From Lachnospiraceae bacterium (GTDB lineage Bacteria > Bacillota > Clostridia > Lachnospirales > Lachnospiraceae), in assembly GCA_022510685.1 (NCBI GenBank), contig JAFLTA010000002.1, positions 82,119 through 117,697 on the forward strand: a stretch of DNA of 35,579 nt, given 5' to 3'. The notes under the pieces are model-generated. The model had not been told where the DNA came from, searched no databases, and worked only from the letters and a program-made list of their open reading frames with translations. The position numbers and the translations under genes were made by a program. The stretch's first letter is position 1. Every line of letters starts with the position of its first letter. Positions 24,472 through 35,579 of this stretch are shown here, in pieces.

Positions 24472-24677
24472 TCTCGTCCTCCTTTGATGTATTCTGATAA
24501 ACAGTCAGTATTTAGCATGATAGCACGGTCTGTTGTAATGACTGTCTTACGTTCGACTAGTATAAAAACCTACCAAACAATAATAATACATGTATCAGTA
24601 TAAATCAAGAAAAGTTGTAAAGAATTATGTATAGTTTAAGAGTTATTTGGAGTGCTTGATACAAGGTCTGTCCGGTA

Positions 24678-24706
24678 TTGAAAAAAAAACAGACAAATGA
24701 TATAAT
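24678..24706 (+). promoter_or_regulatory. Promoter for the glycosylation/ECF gene run
   Basis: TTGAAA (24678-24683), 17 bases, TATAAT (24701-24706), with an extended -10 (TGATATAAT). The start would be near 24713, about 150 bases before the YfhO-like gene. A second extended -10 box, TGATATAAT at 24749-24757, lacks a good -35 and might be a minor start. Confidence 0.75.
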
Positions 24707-24735
24707 AAACGCGCAGTGTGCGTGTATTATATCAT
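24697..24735. repeat. 39-base near-perfect palindrome over the -10 box
   Basis: ATGATATAATA (24697-24707) is mirrored by TATTATATCAT (24725-24735). The interior also pairs (AACGC with GCGT, then GC with GT), leaving a 3-base loop and one A/G mismatch. The arm places an extended -10 hexamer on each strand. A third arm, ATGATATAATACGC, follows at 24748-24761, and ATGATATAATAAACGC recurs at 35501-35516. Confidence 0.75.
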
Positions 24736-24860
24736 GCACAGTAAAGTATGATATAATACGCTCTGTGTGATGGAATATACATACGGGGGTGTGTCGGTAG
24801 CATTTGATTACATAAGACAGATTGTAAAATTATACTCAATAAGATAGAGGGGCAGGAATA

Positions 24861-27842
24861 ATGAAGATTTCCTATTTAGTTGAAAAATTATCGAGTGGTA
24901 GACAGCATTTATCACAATCAAATAAAAAACACAGACTTCTCCAATATTATGTGCTCTACACGGTACTGTTTGTATTTGTGTGCTTTATGGTTTTTTGTTG
25001 GTATTTCTTTACCGGAAGAACATTTATTTGGCAATTAGATGGCTGGGAACAGCATTATAAGGCTTTGGTACGTTATGCTCAATATTTGAATTCCATCATT
25101 AATGAACTGCTGTACAACCATCGTTTTGTTTTGCCAGAGTGGGATTTTGCTATCGGAGAAGGAAATGATATTCTTCACTCCCTTCACTATTATGTCATCG
25201 GAGACCCGTTTACATTGTTGTCGTTTTTAGTCCCTTCTCGCTATATGTGGATCTATTACGATTTCATGGTATTATTTCGTCTATATCTGGCAGGTATTGC
25301 CTTTTCCTGGCTTTGCTTTTATACAAAGAAAGACATTGGAGGATATGCGGTTATGGCAGGTGCATTGTCCTATGTATTCTGTTACTGGGCAATTTACAAT
25401 GTAAATCGTCATCCGTACTTTCTAAATCCAATGATATATTTTCCCCTCATTATCCTTGGTATTGAGAAAGTTTTGAAAAAAGAAAGAGCCTATTTACTGA
25501 TTATATCTGTGTTTCTTGCGGCAATTAGTAACTTCTATTACTACTATGTCATTGTACTTTTGACAGTTGCCTATGTAGCAATACGATTTCTCGTAGAATA
25601 TAAGACGGATATTCGCTCCATGCTCAGCGCACTTTTGCGAATAGCCGGCAGCTCCATTCTTGGTTCAGTTATAGGCGGTGTTATTTTGCTTCCTGTCATG
25701 TTTGCTTTCTTGAATGATTCGCGGATGGATTCCGGGAATGCCAGACATTTGGTATATCCGTTGTCTTATTATAGCGGATTATTGGGGGTTTTCTTTTCCG
25801 GAAACGGGAGTTATTGGTTGTGTCTGGGCTATGCCGCTCCTGTGATACTCGCTATTTTCCTGCTCTTTATGCGTAAACGGCAGCATCAGCTGTTGAAGAT
25901 TTGTTTTCTGGCATGTTCGCTCATTATCTTGATTCCGGCATTTGGTCAGGTTTTAAATGGAATGTCTTATATGAGTAATAAATGGTGTTGGGCATTTGCA
26001 CTCCTGTGTGCTTATGTTTTTACTGTGATGTGGCAGGAATTGATGGAACTGAAAATACAGGATGCTGCAAAACTGGCATTGTTTTTAAGTTTATGTTTTC
26101 TGGGACTGCTTATGTTCGAATACTCCCGTACGACAGTCGCATTTGCCGGTATTGGGATAGCATTCATATTTTTAATAGTTATTTTTCCGTTTCAACTTGA
26201 AGAACCGCAGGTTGAACTGTGGAAAAAATGGAAACAGGTAGTTGCCATCGCCTTGGTGATTATAGCCGTTGCTAATGTCAGTTTTTTCAAAAATGCATCA
26301 TCTACAGATAATTATGCAGATGAAGCTAAGACCGTAAAAGATATGGAAGAACAGTTTATGCTGACGGAGACAAATGCTGTTGAATCACTTGCAGAGGCTG
26401 ATGGTACAACCAAATTCTATCGCTTTTCGGGTCGGGGTACTTCGCGAAATGCGGGATTGATGAAAAATATGTCCAATACAAATTATTATTGGAGCATATC
26501 CAATCCTTATATAGATGATTTTCGAAACACGATGCAAATGCGCGAGCCATTATTTCAACTATATCAGGGATATGATGATAGGACGGCACTTCTGGCATTG
26601 AGCTCTGTGAAATATTTTGTAGTACCGGATAGTGCCAAAGTGTTAGTACCATACGGCTTTGCTTATGTGGACAGCATTAATGTAAAAGAGAATATAACGG
26701 ACGAAGCAAAATCACATCTTCTTGAGGAGTTAGGAACAGAGGAATTATCGGATTCCCAAATTAAAGTGATAGAAGAGGCGACTGCATCAACTTATCAAAT
26801 CTACCGGAATACAATGGCGTTACCTATTGCTTATGGGTATAATGCTATCATCAGTGAGGATGAATGGGACAGGCTTTCTGAAGTAGAGAAGCAGGAGGCA
26901 ATGCTTCAATCGGTTCTGCTTGACGGATATGACGGTGAAACACAGGATGATGAAGTTGATTGCAGCAGCAGGTCGCTTGATTACTCCATAGAGTGTGACG
27001 GTACCGGTGTTTCACTAGAGGATAGCAGTTTTGTGGTTACGGAAGAAAATGCGACTGCCACTATTAAATTTGAAGGGGTTGAGGATAGTGAAACATACTT
27101 TTCAATCAATGGTCTTGATTTTGACGGTGTTTCCACCTACGAGTTGTATTTTGGGAGTGGACGGTACGATCCGCTGAATTTGTTTTCGGAAACCCGCTGG
27201 AATCTTTTGCCCTATACAGAACGTGAAGCTGCAGAGAAAGAGCGTCTTTTTTGGTCGGAACCCGTCGAAGCAAATTTGGTGCTGCAATCTTCTGTCGGTG
27301 TAACTAAAATGATTAATTATCTTGCATGTGATCACAGCAGTTACAATGACCGTCATGATTTTACGGTGAATCTTGATTATACGGAGGATGCTGTGAAATC
27401 TATTACCGTCACCTTTTCTGCTGTTGGAGTCTACTCGTATGATTCCATACGGATTATCTGCCAGCCGATGGACAGCTATTCGAAACAGGTGTCAGCTTTG
27501 AAAAAAACAAAGCTTACAAAGGAGAAAGTTGGTACAGATACCATCAGCGGAACAGTTTCTCTGGATGAGCCGAAGATACTCTGCTTATCTGTTCCTTACT
27601 CCGAAGGATGGACCGCCTATGTAGATGGAGAAGAAACAAAACTCTACCGGGCTAATATAAAAAATATGGCATTGATGCTTGATGAAGGTAAACACAAAGT
27701 AAAGCTGGTATACCATACACCGTTTCTCAGGATGGGAGCGGGATTATCTGCTATGGGTGTTGCTGTTTTTGTTATGTTGTTACTAATTGATATACTAAAA
27801 AAGCGAAAATTACCAGGAGCCAAAAGGAGTGAGTCACTATGA
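24861..27842 (+). CDS. YfhO-family membrane glycosyltransferase (GT-C-like)
   Basis: A 993-residue polytopic protein. The N-terminal half (about 30-475) has many membrane helices and a first outside loop rich in acidic and aromatic residues (TFIWQLDGWEQHYKALVRYA). A large soluble, outward-facing region spans about 480-955, and one last membrane helix (about 960-985) is followed by a basic end. Family knowledge: in B. subtilis YfhO transfers sugar from undecaprenyl phosphate to lipoteichoic acid outside the cell, working with CsbB and GtcA-type partners. Homologues of both partners follow here with 4-base overlaps, which strongly supports that role. The start follows AGGGGCAGGA. Acceptor and sugar are unknown. 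Confidence 0.88.
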   Translation: MKISYLVEKLSSGRQHLSQSNKKHRLLQYYVLYTVLFVFVCFMVFCWYFFTGRTFIWQLDGWEQHYKALVRYAQYLNSIINELLYNHRFVLPEWDFAIGEGNDILHSLHYYVIGDPFTLLSFLVPSRYMWIYYDFMVLFRLYLAGIAFSWLCFYTKKDIGGYAVMAGALSYVFCYWAIYNVNRHPYFLNPMIYFPLIILGIEKVLKKERAYLLIISVFLAAISNFYYYYVIVLLTVAYVAIRFLVEYKTDIRSMLSALLRIAGSSILGSVIGGVILLPVMFAFLNDSRMDSGNARHLVYPLSYYSGLLGVFFSGNGSYWLCLGYAAPVILAIFLLFMRKRQHQLLKICFLACSLIILIPAFGQVLNGMSYMSNKWCWAFALLCAYVFTVMWQELMELKIQDAAKLALFLSLCFLGLLMFEYSRTTVAFAGIGIAFIFLIVIFPFQLEEPQVELWKKWKQVVAIALVIIAVANVSFFKNASSTDNYADEAKTVKDMEEQFMLTETNAVESLAEADGTTKFYRFSGRGTSRNAGLMKNMSNTNYYWSISNPYIDDFRNTMQMREPLFQLYQGYDDRTALLALSSVKYFVVPDSAKVLVPYGFAYVDSINVKENITDEAKSHLLEELGTEELSDSQIKVIEEATASTYQIYRNTMALPIAYGYNAIISEDEWDRLSEVEKQEAMLQSVLLDGYDGETQDDEVDCSSRSLDYSIECDGTGVSLEDSSFVVTEENATATIKFEGVEDSETYFSINGLDFDGVSTYELYFGSGRYDPLNLFSETRWNLLPYTEREAAEKERLFWSEPVEANLVLQSSVGVTKMINYLACDHSSYNDRHDFTVNLDYTEDAVKSITVTFSAVGVYSYDSIRIICQPMDSYSKQVSALKKTKLTKEKVGTDTISGTVSLDEPKILCLSVPYSEGWTAYVDGEETKLYRANIKNMALMLDEGKHKVKLVYHTPFLRMGAGLSAMGVAVFVMLLLIDILKKRKLPGAKRSESL

Positions 27843-28786
27843 TTTCTATCATTGTACCATGCTTTAATGAGCAGGAATCTTTGCCGTTGTTTTATGAAGA
27901 GGCAAAGAAGGTCCTGGAAGGGATCGAACAGTCTTATGAAATGTTATTTGTGAATGACGGTTCGTCAGATGGGACGCTTGATATTCTTCGCGAACTGTCT
28001 GAAAAAGATACCGCAGTCAAATACTTATCTTTCTCGCGCAACTTTGGTAAGGAATCTGCCATGTATGCCGGTCTTCAGCATGCGAAAGGCGATTATGTGG
28101 TGATGATGGATGCTGATCTTCAGCACCCGCCGGCTATGCTGGAAGAAATGTATCTTGCCATTAAAGAGGAGGGATATGATGTGGTGGCAGCCAGACGCGT
28201 ATCCCGAAAGGGGGAGCCACTCATACGGTCCTTATTTTCAAGGTGTTTCTACCGCATTATCAATAAGATATCCAGTGCGGAGTTTGTGGATGGCGCTTCG
28301 GATTTTCGTATGTTTTCTCGGAAAGTAGTGGATGCCATGGTGGAGATGGGAGAGTATAACCGGTTCTTAAAGGGAATTTTTGGCTGGGTGGGCTTCAAAA
28401 CCAAATGGGTTCCCTATGAAAATGTAGAGCGGGTAGCAGGAGGGACCAGCTGGTCTTTTTGGAAGCTTTTTCTCTATTCTTTAGAAGGTATTATTGCATT
28501 TTCTACGGTTCCGCTGGGAATTATTTCCATAATCGGAGTGATGTTTTTCGTAGTTGCCTTTGTTTGGATGATTGGCATCATAGTGAGGACTCTTATTTGG
28601 GGTGACCCTGTGGCAGGTTTTCCGACCTTGGCATGTATGCTGTTACTGATTGGCGGTTCTATTCAGTTGTCGTTAGGAATCATCGGGCAGTATCTGGCAA
28701 AGACCTACCTGGAGACGAAACGTCGACCACATTACATTATAGCGGAAACCAATGAGAGAAAGCAAAACGAGGATAAACAGGTATGA
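27839..28786 (+). CDS. GT2 polyprenyl-phosphate glycosyltransferase (CsbB/DPM-like)
   Basis: Loads a sugar from a nucleotide donor onto undecaprenyl phosphate at the cytoplasmic face of the membrane. 315 residues. A GT-A domain starts IIVPCFNEQESLP, with VNDGSSDGT at 38-46 and the metal-binding DAD at 91-93 (MMDADLQHPP). Two membrane helices lie near 220-285 (IIAFSTVPLGIISIIG and ACMLLLIGGSIQLSLG), followed by a basic tail. It overlaps the YfhO-like gene by 4 bases (ATGA) and gtcA by 4 bases. This is the CsbB-like member of a three-component system. The sugar is not decided by sequence. Confidence 0.92.
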   Translation: MISIIVPCFNEQESLPLFYEEAKKVLEGIEQSYEMLFVNDGSSDGTLDILRELSEKDTAVKYLSFSRNFGKESAMYAGLQHAKGDYVVMMDADLQHPPAMLEEMYLAIKEEGYDVVAARRVSRKGEPLIRSLFSRCFYRIINKISSAEFVDGASDFRMFSRKVVDAMVEMGEYNRFLKGIFGWVGFKTKWVPYENVERVAGGTSWSFWKLFLYSLEGIIAFSTVPLGIISIIGVMFFVVAFVWMIGIIVRTLIWGDPVAGFPTLACMLLLIGGSIQLSLGIIGQYLAKTYLETKRRPHYIIAETNERKQNEDKQV

Positions 28787-29238
28787 AACGTATTCGAGAT
28801 TTTTTAAAATCACATCGGGAACCAATATCCTATCTATTCTGGGGGGTTATGACAACCATAGTCAGCTGGGGAACATACAGTCTTTTTGTGACAGTCACGA
28901 AATCTGTCATTATTGCAAACGTGCTATCGTGGATTTGTGCGATACTGTTTGCCTTTGTCACGAATAAACTGTGGGTATTCCGGAGCATGAGTTGGTCTCC
29001 GGATACGGTATTGACAGAATTGTGGACATTTGTTGCAGCCCGAATTGCAACCGGATTTTTGGAAATCGCAGGCGTTCCTTTTCTTATAAATATTGGCATG
29101 AACCAGAGGATATTAGGTATAGAGGGAATGGTGGCAAAAGTTTTTGTCAGTGTTGTGGTAGTCATACTAAATTATGTATTAAGTAAACTTCTGGTGTTTA
29201 GGAATGACGGTGTGTCCGAAAAAATTAACAGTAAGTAA
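28783..29238 (+). CDS. GtcA-family membrane protein (putative lipid-linked sugar flippase)
   Basis: A small protein of 151 residues with four predicted membrane helices (about 15-37, 40-60, 78-98, 118-140). It has the family start EPISYLFWGVMTTIVSWGTY and the conserved FVTNKLWVFRS. GtcA proteins are thought to move undecaprenyl-phosphate sugars to the outer face of the membrane. It is the third part of the YfhO-GT2-GtcA set and overlaps the GT2 gene by 4 bases, so translation is probably coupled. The next gene starts 25 bases downstream. Confidence 0.9.
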   Translation: MKRIRDFLKSHREPISYLFWGVMTTIVSWGTYSLFVTVTKSVIIANVLSWICAILFAFVTNKLWVFRSMSWSPDTVLTELWTFVAARIATGFLEIAGVPFLINIGMNQRILGIEGMVAKVFVSVVVVILNYVLSKLLVFRNDGVSEKINSK

Positions 29239-29263
29239 CAATGTTCATAAATGGAGAAAAATT

Positions 29264-30124
29264 ATGTGGATTGCAGATGAATGGGAAGATTATGAGGTAC
29301 TTGATACTTCAGGCGGTGAAAAACTGGAGCGTTGGGGGGATTATATTTTGGTGCGCCCAGATCCTCAGGTAATCTGGAATACTCCCCGCAAAGAGTCCGG
29401 ATGGAAGAAAAAAAACGGACATTACCATCGAAGTAATCGTGGTGGCGGGGAATGGGAATTTTTCGATTTGCCAAAGACATGGAGTATCAGATACAAAGAA
29501 TTGACATTTCATCTTCAGCCTTTTCAGTTTAAGCATACGGGATTATTTCCGGAGCAGGCGGTCAACTGGGAGTGGTTTGGCGCAAAAATCCATGGGGCAA
29601 ATCGTCCTGTGAAAGTTCTCAATTTATTTGCTTATACGGGAGGGGCAACATTGGCGGCAGCGGCAGCAGGTGCAAGCGTTACCCATGTGGATGCCTCCAA
29701 GGGCATGGTGACATGGGCGAAGGAGAATGCAGCGGCTTCCGGTCTGGCTGACAGACCGATTCGCTGGCTGGTGGATGACTGTGTAAAATTTGTAGAGCGG
29801 GAAATTCGTCGTGGCAATAAATATGACGGAATTATCATGGACCCTCCCTCCTATGGCAGAGGACCAAAGGGAGAAATATGGAAAATAGAGGAAAAGATTT
29901 ATCCGCTTATTCAGTTATGTACGGAAATACTGGCAGAAGATGCACTGTTTTTTTTGATTAATTCTTATACGACAGGATTGCAACCGGCAGTGTTGTCGTA
30001 TATGATGAATACGGAAATCGTAAGTCGCTTTGGCGGACATGTGGATGCACAGGAGATTGGGCTGCCGGTTAGCAGTAATGGACTGATACTTCCCTGTGGT
30101 GCTTCAGGACGTTGGGAGAAATAA
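29264..30124 (+). CDS. Class I SAM-dependent methyltransferase (RlmI-like, PF10672 type)
   Basis: A 286-residue methyltransferase. Cofactor motif I is LNLFAYTGG (119-127), the acidic residue is in HVDAS (Asp143), VDDCVKFVERE follows, and the catalytic DPPSYGRG starts at 193. This resembles the catalytic half of rRNA cytosine-C5 methyltransferases such as RlmI, without an N-terminal PUA domain. The short form is common in Firmicutes and its RNA target is not known to me. The start at ATG 29264 is fixed by GGAG at 29253-29256 (7-base spacing), which removes a 20-residue extension. It lies between the glycosylation genes and the DUF4430 gene, probably co-transcribed by position rather than function. 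Confidence 0.9.
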   Translation: MWIADEWEDYEVLDTSGGEKLERWGDYILVRPDPQVIWNTPRKESGWKKKNGHYHRSNRGGGEWEFFDLPKTWSIRYKELTFHLQPFQFKHTGLFPEQAVNWEWFGAKIHGANRPVKVLNLFAYTGGATLAAAAAGASVTHVDASKGMVTWAKENAAASGLADRPIRWLVDDCVKFVEREIRRGNKYDGIIMDPPSYGRGPKGEIWKIEEKIYPLIQLCTEILAEDALFFLINSYTTGLQPAVLSYMMNTEIVSRFGGHVDAQEIGLPVSSNGLILPCGASGRWEK

Positions 30125-30154
30125 CTGGTTATAGAGAAAAGAGGATGTTGTATA

Positions 30155-31072
30155 TTGGATAATAAGCGTAAAATCAAGAAGATTGCCACCATTATCATTC
30201 TGGTGGTATTCCTTGTGATCGGACTATCCGGTCTGAGGATTCGCTCTGTGGGGCAGTATCGGCAGGAGCAGAAGCAGTTGGCGAAGGAAATCCTCGTGGA
30301 TGAGTCCTCCGGGACGGACGCATCGACAGAAGTCGAAACGAATACACCTGAACCGGATAAATCAGCTGTTCAGGAAAGTGATTCCAAGGGTAGTACGGCT
30401 TCTTCGGATAAAGGAAAAAGTTCCGGAGATGAGACCGGTTCCGCTGATAGGAATGGCAAGAGTTCTGATGGTACGGGAAGTTCTTCGGGTAAAAGTAAGA
30501 GTTCCGGAGGTACGGCAAGTTCTTCCGGCAAAAGTAAAAGTTCCGGAGGTACGGCAAATTCTTCCGTTAAAAGTAAGGGTTCCTATACAAAAGCAAGTTC
30601 TTCCGGCAAAGGGAAAGCTACGAAAAAGCCGGCAACAGCAAAGCCGGAAAGTCGTGCCACACAAACACCTTCCAGGTCAGACGGCAGCTCTGTCTGTTCT
30701 ATAACGATTCGCTGTGACAGTCTGCTAAAGCACTGGGATGATTTGAGTGATAGTGTGAAAAAAAAGGTTCCGGAAAGCGGATTTATATTGCGGAAAACCA
30801 ATGTGAAAGTGACGAATTCGGATACGGCATTTTCCATTTTGCAAAAAGTATGCAAAGCAAAAAATATTGCGTTGGATGCGGAGTATAGTAATGTGTTTTC
30901 CACAGAATATATTCAAGGAATTGGCTACCTGTATGAAAAAGAAGCAGGGGATATGAGCGGATGGCTGTACAGGGTAAATGGGAAAATACCAAATTATGGT
31001 TCTTCCGGATATCAATTGCAGGCAGGGGATGATGTAGAATGGGTATACACCTATACAGGAGAATGGGAATAG
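30155..31072 (+). CDS. Membrane-anchored DUF4430 (transcobalamin-C-like) protein linked to an ECF transporter
   Basis: 305 residues: a short basic cytoplasmic start, one membrane segment (about 11-29), a low-complexity Ser/Gly/Lys stalk (about 50-175) with 13-residue repeats, and a C-terminal DUF4430 domain (about 180-305) ending SGWLYRVNGKIPNYG and DDVEWVYTYTG. DUF4430 (PF14478) resembles the C-terminal domain of transcobalamin and intrinsic factor. The start is a TTG at 30155 about 10 bases after GAGG; no ATG in frame is near. It sits immediately before EcfT, the fused EcfA and an S component, so an outside capture or handover role for the ECF substrate is plausible. A corrinoid substrate is only a suggestion from the fold. 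Confidence 0.85.
   Translation: MDNKRKIKKIATIIILVVFLVIGLSGLRIRSVGQYRQEQKQLAKEILVDESSGTDASTEVETNTPEPDKSAVQESDSKGSTASSDKGKSSGDETGSADRNGKSSDGTGSSSGKSKSSGGTASSSGKSKSSGGTANSSVKSKGSYTKASSSGKGKATKKPATAKPESRATQTPSRSDGSSVCSITIRCDSLLKHWDDLSDSVKKKVPESGFILRKTNVKVTNSDTAFSILQKVCKAKNIALDAEYSNVFSTEYIQGIGYLYEKEAGDMSGWLYRVNGKIPNYGSSGYQLQAGDDVEWVYTYTGEWE
30440..30634 (+). repeat. 39-bp tandem repeats in the DUF4430 stalk
   Basis: Five 13-residue units start at residues 96, 109, 122, 135 and 148. Units 2 and 3 both read SSSGKSKSSGGTA and are almost identical in DNA. The others are diverged. The unit length keeps the reading frame. Confidence 0.8.
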
Positions 31073-31117
31073 AACGAAAACAGATATATATGTAGCAGGG
31101 AATAGACAGGAGGAAAA

Positions 31118-32056
31118 ATGCAGAGGTCAGTATTTGAGACATATCATCCATGGGTGGTGTTTGGATATTTGGTTGCAGTGCTTATTGTGACGATGTCCGG
31201 TATGCATCCGGGAATGATTTTTACGTCCTTTGCCGTCTCTTTTGTCTATTCCCTTTTTTTGTACGGAAAAACGATATGGAAGCGCAGTTTGTTTGTGGGG
31301 ATTCCCGTGGCAGTATTTGCGATGGGCATCCTGCCTCTGTTTCGCCATAATGGCGTCACACCGTTGTTTTACATCAATGATATGGCTGTTACGTTGGAGA
31401 GTATTATTTTTGGCGGCATGATGACACTGTTGCTTCTGGCGGTTTTGCAATGGTTTTATGTCTGGAATGCGTTGTTGGGGCAGGAGAAATTATTATATCT
31501 GATAGGAAGGGCGATGCCGTCTGTGGCGTTAGTCATCAGTATGACATTACGTTTGCTACCGCTTATGGGAAAACGCTTGCAGGATATCCGGGAGGGAAAC
31601 CGGGGGTTGGAAGGGCGTCCGGCGCATGGAATCAGAGGAGGGCTGCAGGATTTATCTGTATTGGTATCATGGTCGTTGGAGGATTCGCTGGAGACCTCCA
31701 TGATTATGGAGACACGAGGTTACGGGATTAAAAGACGAACTTCTTTTCATTTGTATCGGTGGCGGATGAGGGATGTAATGTGGCTTACAGGGATTCTTTT
31801 GCTCTTTATAGCTGTACTTATACAAATGTCAGAGGGATTTACTGACTGGGCATATTTTCCGGAGCTGGTTTGGGAGAAGCGACCCGTTCGGATTGGTGTT
31901 TGTATGCTGTCATTTGGTATGCTTGCCGGAATCCCTTTTTTTACTGACATGGTATATCGGTTGAAACGAAATGTGGGAGAAAGACGCTTTCGGACGGAGG
32001 ACTTTTCGGAGAGAGAGATTGAATATTTGCACGGAATATACGGGAAGGAGGACTAG
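31118..32056 (+). CDS. ecfT: ECF transporter transmembrane component EcfT
   Basis: Couples ATP hydrolysis by the EcfA module to movement of the S component in the membrane. The 312-residue sequence has several hydrophobic helices (about 14-45, 57-75, 95-120, 135-150, 220-235 and 255-275). A cytoplasmic coupling region holds LEDSLETSMIMETRGYG (187-203), and the Arg-Gly pair at 200-201 is the EcfT signature that contacts the ATPase. The start follows AGGAGG. It lies 45 bases after the DUF4430 gene, and its stop codon nearly touches the start of the ATPase gene. Confidence 0.92.
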   Translation: MQRSVFETYHPWVVFGYLVAVLIVTMSGMHPGMIFTSFAVSFVYSLFLYGKTIWKRSLFVGIPVAVFAMGILPLFRHNGVTPLFYINDMAVTLESIIFGGMMTLLLLAVLQWFYVWNALLGQEKLLYLIGRAMPSVALVISMTLRLLPLMGKRLQDIREGNRGLEGRPAHGIRGGLQDLSVLVSWSLEDSLETSMIMETRGYGIKRRTSFHLYRWRMRDVMWLTGILLLFIAVLIQMSEGFTDWAYFPELVWEKRPVRIGVCMLSFGMLAGIPFFTDMVYRLKRNVGERRFRTEDFSEREIEYLHGIYGKED

Positions 32057-32057
32057 C

Positions 32058-33737
32058 ATGGCATTGTTACGGTTTGAAAGAGTGAACTTTTGTTATCCGG
32101 AAAGCGAAAAACAAGTGCTTAAAGAAGTGTTTTTTTCCATTGAGCAGGGAGAGTTCGTGTTGCTGTGCGGGGCTTCCGGATGCGGAAAAACAACACTGTT
32201 GCGTCATGTCTTGAAAAGTCAGATTCCTGTGGGAACCGGAGACGGAGAAATGATTTTTGACGGAAACGATATTGAGCGAATGCCGGATGAGGAGGCTGCA
32301 AGACGTATCTCCTTCGTGGGGCAGGATCCGGAAGCGTCCGTAATTACCGAAACGGTATGGCAGGAGCTTGCATTTGGCTTGGAGAGTTTGGGGACTCCGG
32401 TGGAACAAATGAGGAGACGGACGGCAGAGATAGCGGAGTATTTCGGACTGGGAAAGTTGTTTCGCAGGAACACGGCTGAATTATCCGGAGGACAAAAACA
32501 GCTTTTGCAGTTGGCATCAGCGATGGTGATGCAGCCGGAATTGCTGGTGTTGGATGAGCCTACGTCTCAGCTGGATCCTATTGGGGCAGGACGTTTTTTA
32601 GAGACTCTGGTTAAGCTAAACCGGGATTTTGGCGTAACCATACTACTATCAGAACAACGGTTGGAGGGTGTGCTGCCTCTCGCAGATAAGGTGTTGGTTA
32701 TGGATGAAGGTCAGGTTGAAGTTTGTACTCCGAGGGAATGTAGTATGCTTTTGCAGGAAAAAGGGAGTGCAGTTTTATCTGCGTTACCTGTAGCAAGTCG
32801 TGTGGCAATGGAGTGGAAGGGGACAATGTACGGCAAGTCGACACCAAAACAGGAATCTATTCCCCTTACTATACGTGAGGGACAAATGTGGCTGAGAAAA
32901 CAGAGGAATGTTATAAATGAAAAAAGAAAAAAAGATTTCTCTGTCCGAGATGATAAAACGGAAATAAATATGGAGAGCAAGGAAAATGTTCTTATACAGA
33001 CGAGGCATATATCTTTTGCTTACAATAAAGGGGAACTCATCCTGCGTGACTTTAACTGGAAATTGCAAAAAGGCAGTATATATTGTATTCTTGGAAGCAA
33101 TGGTTCGGGGAAAAGTACACTCCTTAAACTGCTTGCCGGTATTTATAAACCACAGGGTGGCAGAATCATTTCTAAGGCGCGGATCATTTATCTGCCACAG
33201 AATCCTAAGGCTGTGTTTTCAGATATTTCCGTGGAGGAAGAGTTGGCTCAGTTTTTATTGCGGAAACAGTTATCGCAAAAGGAAATGATAGATAAAACGG
33301 AGGAAATGTTAGCGTTTATGGATTTGACAAAGGTGCGTAACAACCATCCCTATGATTTAAGTGGTGGTCAGGCACAGCGTCTGGCAATTGCCAAAGCGTT
33401 ACTTACGGAGCCTGAAATTCTTTTGCTGGATGAGCCTACTAAAGGGTTGGATGCTGCGTTTAAGAAGACATTGGGAAAGTATTTGCAGAAAATGACAGAC
33501 AGGGGGATTACCGTTGTTCTGGTTTCCCATGATTTGGAATTTTGTGCAGAATATTCGACCCATTGTGGATTGTTGTTTGATGGCGAGATGATTTGTCAGG
33601 GATACACCGAAGAATTTTTCCGGGATAATTATTTTTACGTTCCTGCCGCCACACGGATGGCAGATGGTATCTGGGAGGATGTGCTGACAGGAGAAGATAT
33701 TGTTAAGAAGTTAAGTTTAGATAGTAACTTTTTGTAA
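32058..33737 (+). CDS. Fused double ATPase of the ECF transporter (EcfA1-EcfA2 type)
   Basis: One 559-residue chain carries both ATPase domains. Domain 1: Walker A GASGCGKT (38-45), signature LSGGQ (142-146), Walker B LLVLDEPT (162-169). Domain 2: Walker A GSNGSGKS (346-353), signature LSGGQ (434-438), Walker B ILLLDEPT (454-461). Domain 2 has a normal switch histidine (VSHDLE), while domain 1 has SEQRLE, with Gln200 where histidine is usual. A linker (about 250-310) joins them. The start is ATG 32058 after AAGGAGG at 32045-32051; in-frame codons further upstream lie inside ecfT. Fused ATPases occur in several clostridial ECF transporters. Confidence 0.93.
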   Translation: MALLRFERVNFCYPESEKQVLKEVFFSIEQGEFVLLCGASGCGKTTLLRHVLKSQIPVGTGDGEMIFDGNDIERMPDEEAARRISFVGQDPEASVITETVWQELAFGLESLGTPVEQMRRRTAEIAEYFGLGKLFRRNTAELSGGQKQLLQLASAMVMQPELLVLDEPTSQLDPIGAGRFLETLVKLNRDFGVTILLSEQRLEGVLPLADKVLVMDEGQVEVCTPRECSMLLQEKGSAVLSALPVASRVAMEWKGTMYGKSTPKQESIPLTIREGQMWLRKQRNVINEKRKKDFSVRDDKTEINMESKENVLIQTRHISFAYNKGELILRDFNWKLQKGSIYCILGSNGSGKSTLLKLLAGIYKPQGGRIISKARIIYLPQNPKAVFSDISVEEELAQFLLRKQLSQKEMIDKTEEMLAFMDLTKVRNNHPYDLSGGQAQRLAIAKALLTEPEILLLDEPTKGLDAAFKKTLGKYLQKMTDRGITVVLVSHDLEFCAEYSTHCGLLFDGEMICQGYTEEFFRDNYFYVPAATRMADGIWEDVLTGEDIVKKLSLDSNFL

Positions 33738-33764
33738 TAGGACCGGAAGAATAGGAGAATGTGC

Positions 33765-34625
33765 ATGAAAAGAAACCGTGATGTCTCTTATAGGAGGCAC
33801 TATCAGCCGGAAGTGGAACGAAAAAAGCGTCTGGTACGTAATCTGTGTCTGTTGGGGGTCATTGTTTTACTATTGGCTTGTTTATTTTTGTTCTCTCAAT
33901 TGGCTTACATGAATACCCATTATCTGCTTGTGAGTGTATTTGTTCTCGCTGGAGGGCTTTTGCCTGTATTTGTCAGTTTTGAACAGAGGAGACCTCAGGC
34001 ACGGGAAGTGGTTCTGTTGGCAGTGATGACTGCTCTGTGCGTGGGTGTGAATGTACTTTGCAGTCACACCATACCCCTTCATGCAGGAACCATGCTTGTC
34101 ATTTTGACCGGAATTGCACTGGGGCCGGAGGCGGGATTTCTCGTGGGAGCTTTGGGGCGTCTGGTTTGTAATTTCTTTGACGGACAGGGTCCATGGACAC
34201 CGTGGCAAATGTTGACGTGGGGGCTGCTGGGGCTGTTGGCAGGACTTGTGTTTTATAGAGGAGGCAGTCGAAGGAAAAGGATAGATGGGAATGGGGTGTT
34301 TGGCAGAAACCCTAATTCGGATGGGAAGGAGAAGAAGAGTATTTCTTTGCGGGAAAGTATTTTATGTATGACCGTATTTACTTTTTTAAGTGTATTTATC
34401 ATTTATGGAGGTGTGATGAATTTAGCAGCGTGGCTTATGAGTCATGCCATGAGTCCTACGGATACACCGTTGACCTTGGAAGAACTGCTTGTAATTTATG
34501 TGACAGGTGCTCCCTATGATATACTTCATGGGGCAGGAGCGGCAATCTGCATGTTTTTGTTTGGGGATATCCTTCTACAGAAAATAAGACGGGTACAAAT
34601 CAAATTTGGTATCTATATTGGCTAA
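33765..34625 (+). CDS. ECF transporter substrate-binding S component
   Basis: Integral membrane protein that would bind the vitamin-like or other substrate of the ECF transporter. 286 residues: a basic cytoplasmic N-terminus (1-25), then hydrophobic segments at about 27-47, 53-71, 85-105, 108-130, 145-165, 205-230 and 255-275. GIALGPEAGFLVGALGRL and NFFDGQGPWTPWQML are characteristic of S components. AGGAG at 33753-33757 supports ATG 33765 over the in-frame ATG 33759. A charged insertion sits between segments at about 165-200. Its stop overlaps the convergent ZIP gene stop. The substrate is not known. I see no cobalamin, TPP, FMN or other riboswitch ahead of the cassette. Confidence 0.85.
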   Translation: MKRNRDVSYRRHYQPEVERKKRLVRNLCLLGVIVLLLACLFLFSQLAYMNTHYLLVSVFVLAGGLLPVFVSFEQRRPQAREVVLLAVMTALCVGVNVLCSHTIPLHAGTMLVILTGIALGPEAGFLVGALGRLVCNFFDGQGPWTPWQMLTWGLLGLLAGLVFYRGGSRRKRIDGNGVFGRNPNSDGKEKKSISLRESILCMTVFTFLSVFIIYGGVMNLAAWLMSHAMSPTDTPLTLEELLVIYVTGAPYDILHGAGAAICMFLFGDILLQKIRRVQIKFGIYIG

Positions 34626-35407
34626 CCCAATGCCACATCCAACACCATCATCAGTACAAACCCTGCTGCTACACCGATAGTCGCAATATTTGTCTGATTA
34701 CCTGACTGGGATTCCGGAATCAACTCCTCTACCACTACATATATCATTGCTCCGGCAGCAAACGCCAGCAGATACGGCAAAACCGGCAGAATTGTCCGAG
34801 TTAGTAATATCGTAACAAGTGCTGCCACCGGCTCAGTCACTCCGGATAGAAACGCATATCCAAATGCTTTTTTCTTTGTTGCGCCTGCACCGTGTAAGGG
34901 CATGGAAATAATTGCTCCTTCCGGTATATTTTGAATTGCAATGCCAACTGCCAGCACAAACGCTCCGGCAAAACTGATTCCTGTATTGCCCATCATTGCC
35001 CCGGCAAAACTTACTCCCACTGCCATTCCCTCCGGTATATTGTGTAAAGTTACCGCAAATACCAACATGGCAATTTTACTTCTGCTGGTTTTAACTCTCT
35101 TTGCCTGATCATCACTAACTTTATCAATATGTAGATGGCGTATCACGCTGTCTAATAAGAGTAAAAAAGACATTCCCAGCAGAAATCCCACTGTAGCAGG
35201 AACCCACGGGATTTTTCCCTGTTCTGTAGATAAATCTATAGCAGGAATCAGCAGCGACCATACAGAGGCAGCAATCATAACTCCTGCCGCAAAGCCAAGC
35301 AACAGCTTTTCCAATTGGCGTAGTATTTCTTTTTTTATCAGGAATACCATGGCGGCTCCCACAGTGGTTCCCAGCAGAGGAGTTATAATTCCTGTAAATA
35401 GCTGCAT
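34622..35407 (-). CDS. ZIP-family divalent metal transporter (ZupT/GufA-like)
   Basis: Membrane transporter for Zn2+ or other divalent metals into the cytoplasm. 261 residues and about eight helices. The metal-binding motifs are HNIPEGMAVGV (His122, Asn123, Glu126) in helix IV and QNIPEGAIISMPLH (Asn160, Glu163, His172) in helix V. ATG 35407 is preferred over the GTG at 35410 because GAAAGAAG is better spaced for it. The stop codon (TAG) shares bases with the TAA of the S component in the four-base CTAA at 34622-34625, and no terminator hairpin is seen between them. Confidence 0.92.
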   Translation of the reverse strand: MQLFTGIITPLLGTTVGAAMVFLIKKEILRQLEKLLLGFAAGVMIAASVWSLLIPAIDLSTEQGKIPWVPATVGFLLGMSFLLLLDSVIRHLHIDKVSDDQAKRVKTSRSKIAMLVFAVTLHNIPEGMAVGVSFAGAMMGNTGISFAGAFVLAVGIAIQNIPEGAIISMPLHGAGATKKKAFGYAFLSGVTEPVAALVTILLTRTILPVLPYLLAFAAGAMIYVVVEELIPESQSGNQTNIATIGVAAGFVLMMVLDVALG

Positions 35408-35482
35408 CACATACTTCTTTCCAAAAGTCTCTTATAATTATTCTATGCAGATATGATAGAGTGGTGCATATTAAGGATGGGG

Positions 35483-35510
35483 TGGACAAAAAAAATTAGC
35501 ATGATATAAT
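35483..35510 (+). promoter_or_regulatory. Promoter reading out of the window
   Basis: TGGACA (35483-35488), 16 bases, TATAAT (35505-35510), again with extended -10 TGATATAAT. It shares ATGATATAATAAACGC (35501-35516) with the promoter at 24697-24712. Transcription would start near 35517 and continue beyond the right edge. Confidence 0.7.
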
Positions 35511-35516
35511 AAACGC

Positions 35517-35579
35517 AAAAGCAACGTTTATCTTGTGAGAACTTCGTTCTCAATATGCGCAGAAACCTTGCGCAGTGTA
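35517..35579 (+). other. Hairpin-rich leader of a transcript leaving the window
   Basis: TGAGAAC (35536-35542) and GTTCTCA (35546-35552) form a 7-bp hairpin with a TTC loop. TGCGCA at 35556-35561 and 35569-35574 can pair across a 7-base loop. The last bases include GCGCAGTGT, which also occurs in the loop of the palindrome at 24711-24719. The sequence is cut off, so its role cannot be told. Confidence 0.45.

Follow-up and report, generated by a model that had tools for sequence, protein, structure and literature searches.

A 35,579-nt stretch of the genome of a Lachnospiraceae bacterium (assembly GCA_022510685.1, contig JAFLTA010000002.1; hereafter the window) carries at positions 30155-34625, on the + strand, four consecutive genes for a DUF4430 protein, EcfT, a fused EcfA and the S component of an energy-coupling factor (ECF) transporter. 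The intergenic gaps are 45, 1 and 21 nt, and a purine-rich stretch lies ahead of each gene. An original prediction, made from the sequence alone, had described this gene order, the common strand, the short gaps and the domains, and all of these stand as described, the domains with Pfam and motif matches. With EcfT, both EcfA ATPase domains and an S component in one gene set, the locus encodes an ECF transporter with its own module genes. The features of the locus are:

30155..31072, + strand: membrane-tethered DUF4430 (transcobalamin beta-like) protein, 305 amino acids, TTG start; PF14478 at 58.4 bits
30290..30685, + strand: Ser/Gly/Lys/Thr/Ala-rich stalk of the DUF4430 protein, residues 46-177; 36 S, 18 G, 17 K, 14 T and 11 A in 132
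30686..31069, + strand: predicted beta-grasp domain of the DUF4430 protein, residues 178-305; AlphaFold2 pLDDT (predicted local distance difference test) 94.8; top Foldseek match the transcobalamin beta domain
31118..32056, + strand: EcfT, transmembrane coupling protein, 312 amino acids; 21-sequence profile matches solved EcfT 5d3m_D at 6e-18
32058..33737, + strand: fused EcfA-EcfA' ATPase, 559 amino acids from the probable start; two ABC_tran domains
33759..34625, + strand: CbrT-like S component, 288 amino acids, two helices before a six-helix core; PF07155/PF12822; best profile match 6fnp_A (CbrT) at 2.4e-20

The DUF4430 protein has a single hydrophobic segment (residues 9-27) as its anchor, a stalk of 132 residues that are 73% S/G/K/T/A, and a PF14478 match at residues 223-299 that lies well above the family cut-off of 23.8 bits. 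Residues 1-60 contain no Cys, so the window protein has no lipobox; the loose lipobox pattern that we applied matched 11 of 33 rows (the window's row included in the set) and misses some likely lipoproteins, such as those of loci L051 and L090. Foldseek searches with the AlphaFold2 model, built from residue 175 onward, revealed 19 matches at E<=1e-3, 17 of which were chains of transcobalamin, intrinsic factor or haptocorrin, while the other two were chains of 3u7z, a Ruminococcus gnavus structure deposited as putative metal binding. Against the transcobalamin beta domain 5no0, the model scored E 4.7e-6 with a TM score of 0.75 by target length and 15% identity. As modelled, the DUF4430 domain has a transcobalamin-beta-like beta-grasp fold.

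The EcfT sequence by itself had no Pfam match, even at E<=1; the profile that identified it was built from the window sequence and 20 relatives, and CbiQ matched 13 of these 21 sequences. Each half of EcfA carries a Walker A motif (at 32169 and 33093), an LSGGQ motif (32481 and 33357) and a Walker B motif (32541 and 33417), and its start is probably at 32058 rather than at the start of the longer open reading frame (ORF), 31971. The S component was modelled with eight helices (pLDDT 85.3), of which we take the two N-terminal ones to be extra relative to the six-helix S core. A profile of 39 S sequences found CbrT ahead of the next solved S component by twelve orders of magnitude, with RibU at 5.6e-8, 4hzu_S at 1.1e-4 and FolT at 0.46. 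Folate or riboflavin specificity by family name was rejected (TIGR04518, 32.4 bits against a cut-off of 60; PRK13661, 26.9 against 99). A search of the genome with PF12822, the one S family searched, found a single S component at E<=0.01, that of the window.

The same genome encodes a second DUF4430 protein, secreted-looking and 434 amino acids long, with an extra C-terminal part (C18:39289-40593; L002 754-2058). Its N-terminus bears a weak likeness to surface proteins of relatives (BLAST E 0.001 to 0.05, with no phmmer match). The ends of contigs C15 and C18 share no exact overlap, so this second gene could not be placed beside the window. Directly after it lies a gene for a 543-amino-acid protein that looks beta-propeller-like by eye.

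The gene pair in related genomes

The original prediction had reasoned from adjacency to a joint function, and a survey of that adjacency had been set as a test beforehand. At E<=1e-8, 100 of the 397 family genomes had the S component, the genome of the window counted. From the 99 others, 60 loci were taken in 59 genomes, mostly the best-scoring ones (the similar-scoring G175, G044 and G219 were left out). In 53 of these 60 loci the DUF4430 gene was the immediate same-strand neighbour of the ECF core, upstream in 48 and downstream in 5. Two further loci (L065 and L083) show it at a distance of one or two genes, and in another two (L045 and L066) a contig end truncates the locus. A separate scan took in 80 named loci from Clostridia, Blautia, Paenibacillus and others and shares at least two loci (L094 and L102) with the first set; under a less strict criterion, 63 of the 80 had DUF4430 near the S gene and in the same orientation. 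Furthermore, PF14478 was present in 98 of the 100 S-bearing family genomes (again with the window's own) against 96 of the 297 without S; since these genomes are related to one another, we do not read the p-value of this contrast literally. Carriers of the system include Lachnospiraceae-type bacteria, other Clostridia and Paenibacillus. This conserved adjacency supports a joint function of the DUF4430 and ECF genes.

Coincidence offers another account of the arrangement, in which DUF4430 and an ECF operon are chance neighbours in this genome: the DUF4430 gene starts 30 nt behind an unrelated methyltransferase gene and could share that transcript. The pair is kept in 53 of the 60 loci of relatives, and nearly every S-bearing genome has DUF4430; we therefore reject this account, whose probability we regard as negligible.

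Some loci vary in layout. The S gene lies between DUF4430 and EcfT in L072 (G145), and in 11 of the 60 loci (L045, L047, L059-L062, L067, L070, L071, L084 and L089) the ATPases and S component share one open frame of 809-983 amino acids, an apparent EcfA-EcfA'-S fusion.

In the window, the gene that ends 30 nt before the DUF4430 gene is RNA-methyltransferase-like (29204-30124, + strand). On the other side, a gene for a ZupT-like ZIP metal transporter (34622-35410, - strand) converges on the S gene, and their ends overlap by 4 nt.

Riboswitches and toroid-like proteins

Among the 60 genomes searched for the cobalamin riboswitch (RF00174), 53 had a match, 51 of them above the cut-off; the window's own genome is among those without. 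Counted upstream and on the same strand, riboswitches were present in 9 of the 60 loci at up to 2 kb, in 16 at up to 5 kb and in 30 at up to 12.5 kb, as against about 0.05, 0.13 and 0.33 loci expected under uniform scatter. Distances were taken to the first T or S gene from the nearest match per locus (a second match of L079, about 11.6 kb upstream, was left out), and the expectation used 144 riboswitches where the per-genome rows sum to 139; a few matches fall below the Rfam gathering score, for example that of G188 (L070) at 27.9 bits. The riboswitch stands directly before the DUF4430 gene in L034, L038, L073 and L081, and before a short ORF preceding it in L043. In G286, it lies at a contig end before a DUF4430 start nearly identical to the DUF4430 cut by the C113 edge, and the two pieces are probably one gene across a contig break. 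The scan of the named set covered 27 of its 80 loci and found 16 with RF00174 on the S strand, 12 upstream and 4 only downstream.

Exactly one riboswitch match was found in each of 26 genomes, and 20 of these have it at this locus. It stands upstream on the same strand in 16 genomes and before a convergent toroid-like gene behind S in three (G300, G336 and G257); the twentieth is G286. In G259, G098 and G282, the sole riboswitch precedes another DUF4430 gene, with a toroid on the same chain in G282 and a toroid gene next to it in G098. It precedes large secreted-looking proteins without a profile match in G078 and G240, and lies at a contig end in G372. Very large DUF4430 proteins, of 948-1932 amino acids, are found in L183 (G259), L184 (G098), L185 (G282, the protein with the toroid on its chain) and L048 (2245-7476); those of G259, G098 and G282 are the ones that come after the sole riboswitch.

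The toroid-like proteins form part of a cluster of separate proteins (cluster 3, single linkage) found in 27 of the 60 loci, many members of which share the consensus YTEYxRxxLALxAxGxDP...QGxNGxIWALxA. The cluster is mixed, in that nine members also carry DUF4430, and our toroid check covered part of its members. Pfam Prenyltrans matched 6 of 16 aligned toroid-like proteins. The profile of these 16 proteins found squalene-hopene cyclases among solved sequences and not transcobalamin alpha, so the label alpha-domain-like rests on fold class. In L036, L041 and L049, RF00174 precedes a toroid-like gene that runs towards the DUF4430-EcfT-EcfA-S genes (the L049 match is below the gathering score), and phmmer relates these three genes to those of cluster 3. 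In two loci (L040 2435-6551; L044 9063-13178), DUF4430 and the toroid gene are separated by three ORFs, which in L040 are a MoxR-like AAA one (labelled by eye), one without assignment and one for a Transglut_core protein; this trio recurs in four loci.

Ligand class and the role of the DUF4430 protein

The genome of the window encodes one strong B12-binding protein, which is MetH-like: TIGR02082 matched at 379 bits, below its cut-off of 1010.85, over a scanned locus that covers 617 residues of an 882-amino-acid frame. CbiC, the sole marker of B12 synthesis searched for, was not found in the assembly, and no FecCD permease was detected there; because the assembly is 90.65% complete in 102 contigs, both absences are provisional. 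A ligand of the cobalamin/corrinoid class, as the original prediction had guessed, is strongly supported by the CbrT-like S component, the modelled transcobalamin-beta fold, the riboswitches of relatives and the MetH-like enzyme without detected CbiC or FecCD.

The four genes therefore likely encode an ECF importer for cobalamin or related corrinoids with the DUF4430 domain as its capture partner. This reading draws on the order of the genes, the identity of the domains, the predicted fold, the conserved association and the riboswitches linked to the locus in relatives, together with a B12 consumer in an assembly where neither CbiC nor FecCD was detected. The system itself is real and conserved, and very probably imports corrinoids. 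EcfT, the fused EcfA ATPases and the CbrT-like S component would form the pump, and the DUF4430 protein would sit outside the cell on its membrane anchor and flexible stalk. Its transcobalamin-beta-like domain may bind the corrinoid and either raise its local concentration or pass it to the outward-facing S component, which would then topple, as in the general ECF model, with ATP-driven release of the corrinoid inside for use by the MetH-like enzyme. Corrinoid binding by the DUF4430 and S proteins, contact between the two and transfer are inferred steps of this scheme. The system would be a candidate entry route for B12 in this bacterium, whose assembly yielded no FecCD permease.

Several observations weigh against this reading. 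Neither the window (24500-35579 at E<=5) nor the rest of the assembly (all 84 candidates scored) contains an RF00174 match, so the missing riboswitch that the original prediction had remarked on is a real absence here. In the structural comparison that it had called for, the DUF4430 model matches transcobalamin; for the S model, Foldseek gave no preference to CbrT. FolT, 4hzu_S and RibU ranked first there and ThiT was also among the top matches, with similar TM scores and none at E<=0.001, and CbrT was absent among the best 50 of 94 matches. A sequence profile of the DUF4430 domain had no match among solved structures, and as modelled the link of this domain to transcobalamin is one of fold and PF14478; a full-length profile gave 14 weak matches, low-complexity-like in the four alignments shown. 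Three of the 60 loci (L050, L076 and L078) have no DUF4430 in the fetched stretch, with no contig end as the cause; in the genome of L076 (G227), a DUF4430 gene lies about 8.6 kb upstream. DUF4430 in the 96 genomes without an S match means that the domain also works elsewhere, and the sole other genome of the same genus sampled, G192, has no S match. Many of the DUF4430 matches listed for the S-less genomes are short, about 140-200 amino acids; G192 has a DUF4430 match at 5.4e-7. Finally, some carriers may have other B12 routes. A Roseburia metagenome-assembled genome (L102) carries the system, and Roseburia are predicted to be cobalamin makers with BtuCDF (PMC7478625, as excerpted); several carriers have up to eight riboswitches. 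The system thus need not be the only route in those carriers.

With respect to the riboswitch, only 30 nt separate the upstream methyltransferase gene from the DUF4430 gene of the window, as compared with a gap of 610 nt before the DUF4430 gene in L034, and an unrelated upstream promoter may be the source of ECF gene transcription in this genome. On the 5' side of the 434-amino-acid DUF4430 gene, contig C18 ends 57 nt ahead of the TTG start (111 nt ahead of the first ATG), and any riboswitch beyond that point would have been missed. G078, which has the best S match, carries its only RF00174 about 60 nt upstream of the ATG that probably starts a secreted-looking protein (965-amino-acid frame); what this position says of the cut gene is suggestive, no more.

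The lack of a riboswitch in the window and its assembly also bears on the ligand, as do the matches of the S component to the FolT and RibU families, both below their cut-offs. On these grounds the system could serve a different ligand, either another corrinoid-like or an unrelated cofactor, with B12-type parts merely inherited; Burroughs et al. 2007 allow a distinct metabolite for archaeal members of their family (PMC1796856, as excerpted). The riboswitch link across relatives, CbrT as the best solved relative and the MetH-like enzyme without detected CbiC or FecCD speak against a different ligand, which we consider very unlikely.

Purified ECF-CbrT transports cobalamin in liposomes, where the ECF module and CbrT were the only components of the active proteoliposomes, and the excerpted text of PMC5997447 mentions no extracytoplasmic partner, a further point against a capture step. 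The S component might accordingly import cobalamin alone, with the DUF4430 protein as a surface helper in storage, protection from competitors or a DUF4430/toroid assembly, and with no direct hand-over. Some DUF4430 proteins at these loci are indeed large surface proteins, one with Big_2 domains (L087), and the DUF4430 gene stands behind S rather than ahead of EcfT in 5 of the 53 loci. The presence of a DUF4430 gene beside the ECF core in 53 of 60 loci speaks against the helper role, which we consider rather unlikely.

Within the reading of DUF4430 as a capture partner, the separate toroid partners suggest a split transcobalamin. A membrane-tethered beta domain beside the ECF pump and a separate surface alpha/alpha-toroid of the same riboswitch regulon could close on a corrinoid and deliver it to the S component, which we advance as a tentative and somewhat doubtful extension. 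The alpha and beta domains of human transcobalamin co-elute only with cyanocobalamin present (PMC5599065, as excerpted), so a membrane beta domain and a wall toroid could close on the same ligand. PF00432 found no toroid in the genome of the window, and the sole match to the toroid profile is at the profile tail (positions 403-458); here, the beta domain of a split transcobalamin would have either no partner or the second DUF4430 protein as one.

Comparison with known cobalamin carriers and importers

CbrT is an ATP-dependent importer of cobalamin and cobinamide, and the excerpted text of PMC5997447 describes ECF transporters as catching their substrate with the S component. Like ECF-CbrT of Lactobacillus delbrueckii (6FNP), the window encodes EcfT, two EcfA domains and an S component; among solved structures, CbrT comes closest to this S component by sequence. 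L. delbrueckii CbrT is one of eight predicted S components on one shared ECF module and is encoded in nrdJ-cbrS-cbrT-pduO, whereas the window encodes EcfT, a fused EcfA and S together, with two added N-terminal helices on S and a DUF4430 partner ahead. In the open-licence literature, PMC5997447 was the one paper found to treat CbrS along with CbrT.

By Foldseek on the predicted model, the window domain shares its fold with the human transcobalamin beta domain (5no0, 5np4), which in isolation has been crystallised with cyanocobalamin and with cobinamide (PMC5599065, as excerpted). It differs in being carried on a membrane stalk without an alpha toroid on the same chain. The excerpts of PMC9963975 contain both an L. 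rhamnosus annotation, "Additional lipoprotein component of putative cobalamin ECF transporter", and a DUF4430 protein beside rtpR, which we infer to be the same protein; the annotation gives an extra lipoprotein by name only, whereas the window protein has no lipobox.

The capture-protein idea is less new than the original prediction took it to be, since Burroughs et al. proposed its general form in 2007. They described transcobalamin-like SLBB domains, which we take as PF14478, encoded with CbiO/CbiQ genes, and proposed B12 scavenging. As in the window, their operons combine a secreted or surface SLBB protein with a CbiO-like ATPase and a CbiQ-like protein, and they noted toroid fusions and paralogous SLBB proteins; in the excerpted text of PMC1796856, CbiQ is called implicated in cobalt transport, and an S component and riboswitch control are not named. 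Our searches of the open-licence PMC literature found, by titles and the openings of abstracts, no report testing a DUF4430 partner of an ECF transporter, and none of a CbrT-like S component, a riboswitch link or separate toroid partners for such loci. These last three are modest additions to the 2007 proposal, and the CbrT-like S component and the riboswitch link of relatives make its prediction testable. Burroughs et al. also proposed that animals acquired their B12 carriers from Gram-positive bacteria (PMC1796856, as excerpted), and the locus would give that proposal a concrete bacterial setting. If the reading of the DUF4430 protein as a capture partner is true, the ECF importer of the window would capture its ligand outside the cell first, in a step comparable to that provided by BtuF for BtuCD.

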